Positions 37,863 through 39,913 of a DNA stretch of 64,000 bases are shown piece after piece. Numbering within the stretch: position 1 is the first letter of the stretch; each line of letters opens with the position of its first letter. The notes beneath the pieces are model-generated. The model was given only the letters and a program-made list of their open reading frames with translations. It was not told the origin of the DNA and did no database searches. The translations under genes and the position numbers were made by a program. The stretch is from Halorubellus sp. JP-L1 (GTDB lineage Archaea; Halobacteriota; Halobacteria; Halobacteriales; Natrialbaceae), in assembly GCF_011440375.1 (NCBI RefSeq), contig NZ_JAAOIR010000002.1, forward strand, positions 868,001 through 932,000, in the 5' to 3' direction.

Positions 37863-39005
37863 ATGGACTTCAGTCTCTCCCCGGAGCAGAAGCAGATCCG
37901 AGACATGGTCTCGGAGTTCGTCGACGAGGAGGTCGTCCCGCAGGCCGCCGAGATCGACGAGACCGACGAGTTCCCGCGGGACCTCGTCGACGACATGGCG
38001 GAACTCGGCCTGATGGGGATGCCGTTCCCCGAGGAGTACGGCGGCGCCGGCCTGGACTATCACTCCTACGCCATCGGCATCGAGGAGATTTCGCGGGGCA
38101 GCGGCGGCCTCGGCACCGTCGTCGCGGCGCACATCTCGCTCGCGGGGAATATGCTCTACGAGTTCGGGAGCGACGCCCAGAAGGAGCAGTACCTGACGCC
38201 GCTCGCCGAAGGCGAAGACGTCGGCGCGTTCGCGCTCAGCGAAGCCGGCGCCGGGAGCGACGTCCCCGCGATGGACACGACCGCCGAGCGCGACGGCGAC
38301 GGCTACGTCATCGACGGCGGGAAGCTCTGGATCTCGAACGGCTCCGTCGCCGACACCATCACGGTTTTCGCGAAGACGGACCCCGACGCCGGCAACAAGG
38401 GCATCTCCTCCTTCGTCGTCCGCCCCGAGGAGGACGACGGCTTCGTCGTCGAGGGCACGGAGGACAAACTCGGCGACAAGGGCTGTCCGACCGCCGAACT
38501 CCGCTTCGACGACTGCTACGTCCCCGAGGACCGCCTCATCGGCGACGAAGGCCGCGGGTTCGTGCAGGCACTCAAGACGCTGAACGGTGGCCGCATCACG
38601 ATCGCGGCACGCGGCGTCGGCATCGCGCGCGCCGCCCTCGACCAGGCCGTCGACTACGCCGGGGAGCGCGAGCAGTTCGACCAGCCCATCGGCGAGTTCC
38701 AGAGCATCAAGCACAAGCTCGCGGACATGGACACGAAGGTCCAGGCCGCGAAGATGCTCATGCACAAAGCCGCGGACAAGAAGATCCGCGGCGAGGACTT
38801 CATCAAGGAGGCCGCGCAGGCGAAGCTGTACGCGAGCGAGATCAGTCGCGAGGTCGCGAACGAAGGCATCCAGATCCACGGCGGCTACGGGTACACGAAG
38901 GACTTCCCCGCCGAGCGCTTCTACCGGGACGCGAAACTCAACGAGATCTACGAGGGCACGAGCGAGATCCTCCGAAACACCATCGGCGACCACGTCCAGC
39001 AGTAG
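37863..39005 (+). CDS. Acyl-CoA dehydrogenase
   Basis: FAD-dependent alpha,beta-dehydrogenation of an acyl-CoA. 380 residues with 'MDFSLSPEQKQIRDMVSEF', 'GEDVGAFALSEAGAGSD' and 'LWISNGSVADTITVFAKTD' (signature 1), 'GGRITIAARGVGIARAALDQ', and 'QIHGGYGYTKDFPAERFYRD' (signature 2), followed by 'IYEGTSEI' with the likely catalytic Glu, the pattern of short- and medium-chain enzymes. Start ATG 37863 with an AT-rich 'AAAAGTAAAGG' about 32 bases upstream. It fits with the mutase and epimerase genes in acyl-CoA breakdown. Confidence 0.95.
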   Translation: MDFSLSPEQKQIRDMVSEFVDEEVVPQAAEIDETDEFPRDLVDDMAELGLMGMPFPEEYGGAGLDYHSYAIGIEEISRGSGGLGTVVAAHISLAGNMLYEFGSDAQKEQYLTPLAEGEDVGAFALSEAGAGSDVPAMDTTAERDGDGYVIDGGKLWISNGSVADTITVFAKTDPDAGNKGISSFVVRPEEDDGFVVEGTEDKLGDKGCPTAELRFDDCYVPEDRLIGDEGRGFVQALKTLNGGRITIAARGVGIARAALDQAVDYAGEREQFDQPIGEFQSIKHKLADMDTKVQAAKMLMHKAADKKIRGEDFIKEAAQAKLYASEISREVANEGIQIHGGYGYTKDFPAERFYRDAKLNEIYEGTSEILRNTIGDHVQQ

Positions 39006-39052
39006 CACTGGAAAGTAACCCTCTTTACCGTCCGCGGAGAACTCCCGCCCGC

Positions 39053-39125
39053 AGTCCCGTGGTGTAGTGGCCAATCATAATGGCCTTTGGAGCCATTGAC
39101 GGCGGTTCGAATCCGCCCGGGACTA
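39053..39125 (+). tRNA. tRNA-Gln (anticodon TTG)
   Basis: A 73-base cloverleaf without encoded CCA. The acceptor stem is AGTCCCG (39053-39059) with CGGGACT (39118-39124), discriminator A at 39125. The anticodon stem is ATGGC/GCCAT with loop CTTTGGA, giving anticodon TTG. The T-arm is GGCGG-TTCGAAT-CCGCC. No intron. The gene follows the acyl-CoA dehydrogenase stop by 47 bases, and its 3' half is echoed three times downstream. Confidence 0.93.
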
Positions 39126-39445
39126 CTCGCGAGGAACGAAGGTGACGAGCGAGTCGCCCACTGCGTGATTCGAATCCCACCAGTCGCGCGGAGCGAACGA
39201 AGTGAGCGAGCACGTCTGGTGAAGGTTCGATATCCGCCCGGGACTATCCTCCTGCGAACGAACGTGAGCAGCAGGTAGTCCATCCGGCGGATTCGAAGCA
39301 GGGAGCAGCTTGCTGCGACCGTGGTTCGATATCCGCCCGGGACTGTTCGACTTCGAACGAAGGTGAGTGCCGGTAGGTAATCCGGCGTGTTCGAGGCGGA
39401 AAGCGGGACGAACGGAGCGGTCTGGGGTCGATATTCGCACGGGGT
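39104..39445 (+). repeat. Echo array of the tRNA-Gln 3' end
   Basis: The T-loop plus acceptor segment GGTTCGAATCCGCCCGGGAC of the tRNA (39104) recurs as GGTTCGATATCCGCCCGGGA at 39224 and 39323 and more degraded (GGGTCGATATTCGCACGGGG) near 39425, at spacings of 120, 99 and about 101 bases. The same inserted base (GATATCC for GAATCC) marks all three echoes. Linkers carry GAACGAAGGTGA-type sequence (CGAACGAAGTGAGCGAGC at about 39194). No gene lies in 39126-39542, nor any integrase. Confidence 0.8.
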
Positions 39446-39542
39446 GGTGGTCGCCTCGTTGTCGGTCGTGTCGGTGGTGGCGGGTCGTGGTAACTCGACT
39501 CTCGCAAGGGTTATCCGCGGGGCGGTCCTGTGTATGGGTGTA

Positions 39543-39749
39543 ATGGCAGAAGGTAAGGTTGACTTCTTCAACGACACGGGCGGCTACGGTTTCATTTCGA
39601 CTGACGACGACAGCGTCGACGACGACGAGGACGTTTTCTTCCACATGGAGGACGTTGGCGGGCCTGACCTCGAGGAGGGGCAGGAGGTCGAGTTCGATAT
39701 CGAGTCCTCGCCGAAGGGACCGCGCGCGACGAACCTCGTTCGCAAGTAA
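39543..39749 (+). CDS. Cold-shock domain protein
   Basis: A 68-residue single CSD protein that binds single-stranded nucleic acid. 'GKVDFFNDTGGYGFIS' carries RNP1 (GYGFI) and 'DVFFHMEDV' is RNP2. Haloarchaeal acidic insertions ('DDDSVDDDED') separate the motifs. Start ATG 39543, with an alternative ATG nine bases upstream. A GGTTATC stretch about 30 bases upstream could be the promoter. Confidence 0.93.
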   Translation: MAEGKVDFFNDTGGYGFISTDDDSVDDDEDVFFHMEDVGGPDLEEGQEVEFDIESSPKGPRATNLVRK

Positions 39750-39913
39750 CTACGGTCTTCGTCGGTCGTCCGGTGCGATTGGCGATTTCTCGTTCTTTCA
39801 TTTTCACGCCAGAGAGCTACTGCGTTGGTTCGGGAGTGGTTGCGGGACTCGAGGGAGTGTGGGGTGCCGGCAGGTATTTGTGACGGTATCTCATGGGTTG
39901 TTCTTGCATAGAG

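Follow-up and report, generated by a model that had tools for sequence, protein, structure and literature searches.

Results

The tRNA-Gln locus

The window (the whole stretch of DNA that was analysed, 64,000 nucleotides of the Halorubellus sp. JP-L1 genome) contains a tRNA-Gln(TTG) gene at 39053..39126, identified by ARAGORN and by Rfam RF00005 (63 bits). A series of echoes downstream copies the last 22-23 nt of this gene (T-loop to 3′ end). The echoes lie in three units, all on the forward strand like the gene itself. Unit 1 opens with a first hairpin (hp1; CTCGC..GAACGAAGGTGA..GCGAG, 39127..39154), recognised from its sequence and fold. It is followed by the T-loop region of the tRNA in inverted orientation (..GTGATTCGAATC, 39162..39177), seen in the sequence and in a match of model R1 (G000:C2:907161-907237, G000 being the genome of the window), by a second hairpin (hp2) of class A (ACCAGTCGC..GAACGAAGTGAGCGAGC..ACGTCTGGT, 39178..39221; model R3, E = 6.4e-14), and by echo 1 (GGTTCGATATCCGCCCGGGACTA, 39224..39246), found in the sequence and by repeat search. 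In unit 2, hp1 (CCTGC..GAACGAACGTGA..GCAGG, 39250..39275) was read from the sequence, and the inverted copy, which here covers the complete tRNA 3′ end (TAGTCC..GGCGGATTCGAA, 39276..39297), from the sequence and an inverted-repeat search; an hp2 of class B (GCAGGGAGCAGCTTGCTGCGACCGT, 39298..39322; model R2, E = 7.5e-15) and echo 2 (39323..39345; sequence and repeat search) complete the unit. Unit 3 (39346..39424) is decayed, and its hp1, inverted copy (39378-39394) and hp2 were assigned by eye, with no model match. It leads to an equally decayed echo 3 (GGGTCGATATTCGCACGGGG, about 39425..39447), with a local alignment score of 23 against a maximum of 21 in 5000 shuffles of the surrounding DNA.

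The three echoes are therefore present where the original prediction had placed them (39224, 39323 and near 39425), and their even spacing, 99 bp and then about 102 bp, and the palindromic sequence of the linkers were also borne out. Echoes 1 and 2 are identical (GGTTCGATATCCGCCCGGGACT). The prediction had further held that all three share the string GATATCC, and here the inserted base is indeed common to them, but the exact string is found only in echoes 1 and 2; echo 3 reads GATATTC and retains GATAT.

The genes scanned around the array encode an acyl-CoA dehydrogenase, a cold-shock protein, a DUF7571 protein and an HTH regulator. In agreement with the prediction, none of the scanned flanking proteins has an integrase domain. 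A cmscan of 38900-39800 against Rfam at E ≤ 5 returned the tRNA and one weak unrelated match, and no rtT.

Anatomy of the unit

Arrays compared side by side share one order, hp1, inverted tRNA 3′ end, hp2 and direct echo, with a unit period of about 120 bp. The first hairpin starts where the tRNA ends, opening with a brief run rich in T, and the inverted copy is best preserved in the T-loop and T-stem, often also at the acceptor end. The second hairpin falls into a few recurring classes, namely A (ACCAGTCGC..ACGTCTGGT), B (CAGGGAGC..GCGACCGTGG), C (GTGAGTCGCAGC..CGTCTCAC) and, in other genomes, E (CCCAGAGGACGAG..GAGTCCTCGCGG). The units contain no genes and are not bounded by terminal inverted repeats.

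Echoes were present in 121 of 218 collected tRNA contexts, 179 echoes in total. Their boundaries are narrow, the start lying 21-24 nt before the tRNA end in 161 of the 179 and the end within 2 nt of the tRNA end in 167; 102 of 163 echoes are perfect copies. In the alignment of hp2 classes A and C, 93% of the cells are paired and 42 are double-changed, against 14.5 in shuffled alignments. The covariation score is 0.298 against 0.139 shuffled, and slid controls collapse. Covariation in class B goes in the same direction and is weaker.

Echoes match their own tRNA throughout the genome

The region of the window matches 13 places in its own genome, and the 12 outside the window all adjoin tRNA genes. 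We identified 43 tRNA genes in this genome with Rfam RF00005 and took them as stretches with their flanks. For 42 tRNAs, the last 17 nt were compared with the DNA downstream of the same gene, with permuted assignments as the null. The mean own-tRNA match was 22.1, against 13.3 when permuted (z = 19.2), and a score of at least 26 was reached by 17 of the 42, with 0.53 expected. The same comparison made upstream, as a control, was flat (z = 1.3), and the inverted copy likewise matches its own tRNA (z = 4.3).

Similar arrays at other tRNAs, which the original prediction had proposed to look for, are indeed present: covariance models found at least one unit at 21 of 43 tRNA genes in this genome, at 22 of 44 in G294, which belongs to another family, and at 12 of 46 in G151. 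The array at tRNA-Gln exemplifies a phenomenon found across the lineage.

Range and specificity

Of 53 genomes sampled from the order, 51 have matches to model R1, as does 1 of 242 genomes outside the order but within the phylum (E = 4e-4). A search of 84,980 bacterial and archaeal species with the exact hp2 pattern gave 46 stretches, haloarchaeal without exception, from genera that include Halorubrum, Halorubellus, Halobacterium, Halogeometricum, Salinigranum and Halovivax. A same-strand tRNA lies at most 500 nt upstream of 38 of 49 pattern matches, the remaining 11 being near contig ends or having no tRNA found, and an echo resembling a tRNA 3′ end follows in all 49.

Model R3 covers the hp2 core and contains no tRNA sequence, and its 12 matches in the own genome (E ≤ 1.2e-10) all lie in tRNA arrays, so that the link to tRNA genes cannot be a chance effect of a T-loop contained in the model. 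Since R1, R2 and R3 were partly built from units of this genome, their matches in it are not independent; the matches in other genomes are. Strong matches away from tRNA genes were mostly explained: three arrays are apparently displaced by integrated elements, one lies behind a tRNA-Trp that an intron hides from RF00005, and four in G151 are hp2 cores within another repeat.

As separate observations, class C cores without a tRNA occur at L173, L174, L175 and L180, and also at L103, on a plasmid of Halomicrobium urmianum. The class C cores of G151 are embedded in a repeat (GGCGCG..GAGGCTGGGGAGG..) with no Rfam match.

The linkers of the window have no match in 50,697 phage records. Plasmids gave matches to tRNA genes, to a single unit linked to a tRNA and to a single hp2 core with no tRNA. 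Viral contigs were considered as carriers too, but their pattern matches were unrelated on inspection. At loose thresholds Rfam recognises only tRNA in the arrays, and no known structured-RNA family. We found the repeat class undescribed in Rfam and in the open-access literature, which does not prove that no description exists. The tRNA-tail cassettes are apparently a widespread and undescribed repeat class, and have been found only at tRNA genes.

Turnover, inheritance and transfer

The original prediction derived the tRNA-Gln echoes from one ancestral echo. We examined the DNA downstream of tRNA-Gln in the sister species, a comparison that it had also proposed, and found an array with GATATCC in both echoes, so that the variant predates the split of the two species or was copied. 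This supports a single ancestor, but the variant alone is weak evidence of ancestry, because one-base T-loop insertions recur at other tRNAs and in other families. A GATATCC-type insertion is found in tRNA-Gln echoes of another family, and further ones are TTCATAATCC at tRNA-Trp and TTCAAAATCC and TTCACAATCC at tRNA-Ala-like echoes. Among inserted bases in echo T-loops (window 39224-39345; L172; L251; L285; L304), 9 of 13 lie at positions 16-17 from the end.

Sister species in a single genus from another family differ at orthologous tRNA-Pro and tRNA-Gln genes, both in the number of echoes (0, 1 or 2) and in the hp2 class (A or B at tRNA-Pro, B or E at tRNA-Gln). Judged from such comparisons, the cassettes appear to come and go between species, behaving like mobile DNA. 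No clean insertion with an undisrupted flank could be polarised, and loss from an older, richer state therefore explains part of the variation. The closer echo copy is the proximal one in 27 arrays and the distal one in 8, with 11 equal (p = 0.002), a gradient that fits either the addition of units beside the tRNA or conversion by the tRNA.

In the own genome, the tRNA-Ile and tRNA-Val(GAC) units are near-identical from T-loop to T-loop and differ in hp1, stems and acceptor ends. This shows that hp2 moved between the two tRNAs with both breakpoints at the T-loop. Strong hp2 similarity between different tRNAs of one genome is otherwise rare (1% of pairs at a score of at least 0.8). At the same score, the nearest neighbour of an hp2 belongs to the same tRNA of another genome in 28 cases and to another tRNA of the same genome in 5; inheritance thus dominates and mobility is slow. 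Cross-tRNA transfers of cassettes are a minority. Our sequence comparisons revealed no transposition or excision, and no enzyme linked to the arrays.

Hairpin stems at the DNA or RNA level

With a stem finder that treats every mismatch type alike, the hp1 stems were found to contain 945 Watson-Crick pairs, 4 G-U and 12 A-C, compared with 35 G-U and 2 A-C in the tRNA acceptor stems of the same set (Fisher p = 5e-7). As hp1 has no excess of G-U, the near-perfect palindromes seem to be maintained at the DNA level and not by selection on RNA; selection on RNA structure had been a candidate, and the G-U test for it came out negative. Folding of the antisense strand would be favoured by the A-C excess over G-U in hp1 (12 against 4, p = 0.08) and by a C.A position conserved in hp2. 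The hairpin tips, inspected by eye, would instead favour folding of the sense strand, on which tandem G.A (GA..GA) encloses a loop of the GNA type, an arrangement that would suit folded single-stranded DNA.

Integrated elements and variant arrays

The own genome carries an element of about 28.7 kb in tRNA-Arg(TCG) (G000:C1:18677-about 47450; L329, L330), and a tyrosine integrase (L330:7776-8885) is encoded next to its right end. At this end about 15 bp of the tRNA end are repeated, and a tRNA-Arg echo unit follows. In G151, tRNA-Gly(TCC) holds an element of 8.1 kb, the right end of which (L170, G151:C1:120600-122300) shows the second half of the tRNA, then two units, with an additional echo of the acceptor end alone around a G+C-rich hairpin. 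Neither hp1 nor hp2 was seen at the few element ends read, namely those of the element in tRNA-Arg and the right-hand one of the element in tRNA-Gly.

Two variant forms were also observed. A tRNA-Pro(CGG) echo in L179 (G294:C1:2654100-2655200) begins as early as the anticodon loop and reaches the 3′ end, with a hairpin interrupting it at the T-loop, and the arrays at L017, L027, L035 and L049 in the own genome and at L071 have an acceptor-only echo around a hairpin of opposite orientation (..AGTCCC..GGGACTCCC..).

Discussion

Comparison with known systems

Among the closest known systems are the rtT repeats of the Escherichia coli tyrT operon, where tandem units follow the tRNA gene and each contains a short stretch copied from the tRNA 3′ end. 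The haloarchaeal cassettes are also tandem, located downstream of tRNA genes and carry tRNA 3′-end copies; to our knowledge, however, rtT repeats have neither the inverted copy nor the two hairpins. In addition, rtT is known from bacterial tRNA operons, from which its RNA is released (PMC4986893), whereas the window region has no Rfam rtT match.

REP and REPIN sequences are short non-autonomous palindromes, some of them within palindromes, which are thought to be mobile as folded single-stranded DNA (PMC3116915, PMC3733652). The cassettes are likewise short palindromes able to fold as single strands, but REPs are bacterial and scattered extragenically, whereas the cassettes are located at the 3′ ends of tRNA genes and duplicate part of the adjacent gene. 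Dispersal of the REP kind was not found, the hp2-core matches of the own genome (E ≤ 1.2e-10) being all in tRNA arrays. We also looked for the unpaired terminal tag, GTAG or CGTC, of the REP superfamilies named after it; CGTC is present in the hp2 3′ arm of classes A and C, but within the stem region. The Y1 HUH transposase family PF01797 is absent from G000, G151, G294 and G240, all of which have R1 matches, in a search with a single Pfam model that could miss a distant enzyme. The only sampled members of the order without R1 matches, G197 and G231, have 10 and 3 PF01797 matches, respectively. A Y1 transposase (RAYT) was rejected as the mover, since this single-model search did not find it in the own genome or in three other array-bearing genomes.

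Some casposons target the last nucleotides of a tRNA gene, leaving it unaltered, with duplications of 1-27 nt (PMC4046053). They are, however, large and gene-bearing, with terminal inverted repeats, and the cassettes are too short for Cas1 or PolB genes. The MITEs, PATEs and SMRs of Haloquadratum are short mobile repeats without a transposase, some of which insert into palindromes (PMC3119063), but they are not described at tRNA ends or with tRNA copies, and the cassettes lack terminal inverted repeats of their own.

Origin of the cassettes

We tentatively favour, with a confidence that falls just short of even, the explanation that the tRNA-Gln echoes are a small array of non-coding DNA hairpin cassettes, found across the haloarchaea at tRNA 3′ ends, that move and multiply as DNA. 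This comes much closer to the second suggestion of the original prediction, an unrecognised element amplifying gene 3′ ends, with the limit that the cassettes were found at tRNA genes only. Recombination at the T-loop and 3′-end sequence would move them, the DNA probably taking the form of a folded single sense strand or of a cruciform. A new unit would be inserted beside the tRNA and bring a fresh 3′ end; because each added unit supplies this end, the gene would never be broken. Older units would drift and be deleted through recombination between echoes. The cassettes may be moved by a recombinase that is directed to tRNAs and acts in trans, or else by recombination of the host itself, whose cells are typically polyploid. 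A bolder version of this explanation, possible but doubtful in our judgement, is that the cassettes represent a new class of mobile or self-propagating DNA, which would spread among tRNA genes through the universal T-loop, its insertion chemistry tailoring mirrored and direct 3′ ends of the host tRNA so that the gene survives.

The strongest rival remains a local process driven by the host, which we regard as unlikely. Template switching during replication or repair at the strongly palindromic and heavily transcribed tRNA 3′ end would generate the inverted and direct copies, which gene conversion would then keep similar to the tRNA, while the hairpins would be passed on by descent or exchanged through short homology. 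The direct-inverted-direct order is the expected trace of a double template switch, and the large share of perfect echoes suggests ongoing homogenisation. The finding that hp2 similarity is mostly between the same tRNA of different genomes also agrees with a local origin, as does the lack of a Y1 transposase in the own genome. However, hp2 cores are conserved in sequence across families and have moved between tRNAs, and a purely local process leaves the exclusive use of tRNA 3′ ends and the fixed T-loop boundary unexplained.

Stacked attachment-site remnants from repeated tRNA-targeted integrations were the other account offered in the original prediction, and we consider them improbable. Archaeal integrases favour the T-loop and 3′ end of tRNA genes (PMC8371274), the region that the echo spans, and a tyrosine-integrase attachment site resembles the arrays in that this region is directly duplicated and the tRNA gene restored (PMC8371274). 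One end of a Haloquadratum provirus, for instance, is marked by a 22-nt tRNA duplication (PMC3119063), and elements do integrate at the same tRNAs as the cassettes, such as those of about 28.7 kb at tRNA-Arg(TCG) and 8.1 kb at tRNA-Gly. The cassettes differ in having no adjacent integrase or cargo, and in their conserved hairpins and inverted copy. The linkers are made up of conserved hairpins and an inverted tRNA end, common across haloarchaeal families, and decayed scars would not give a single hairpin, inverted copy and hairpin anatomy with covarying stems at half of the tRNAs. Genuine integrated elements lie between the tRNA and the array, without these hairpins at the ends read, and the one in tRNA-Arg has only about 15 bp in common with the tRNA end. 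The absence of the linkers from the phage records, and the single tRNA-linked plasmid match, also argue against this account. Stacked integrase scars and Y1-transposase REPs both fit poorly as explanations.

Finally, an RNA structure of the tRNA trailer, in which the inverted copy would pair with the tRNA or the echo as a processing or attenuation switch, agrees with the strand-specific position downstream of tRNAs, with the strong and covarying folds and with the sense-strand tandem G.A and GNA-type tips, but is very improbable given that hp1 stems show no excess of G-U over A-C, the opposite of tRNA stems in the same genomes, and that orthologous tRNAs of one genus carry 0 to 2 units.

Significance

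An unnamed repeat system, copied from the tRNA genes themselves, appears to be present at half of the tRNA genes in the most closely examined haloarchaea, a well-studied group. The arrays account for odd sequence downstream of tRNAs that could be mistaken for tRNA fragments, attachment sites or small RNAs. They document, in natural genomes, events that recurred at tRNA 3′ ends, bear on the role of tRNA genes as integration hotspots, and point to a recombination or template-switch activity that is a candidate for study in a genetically tractable haloarchaeon.
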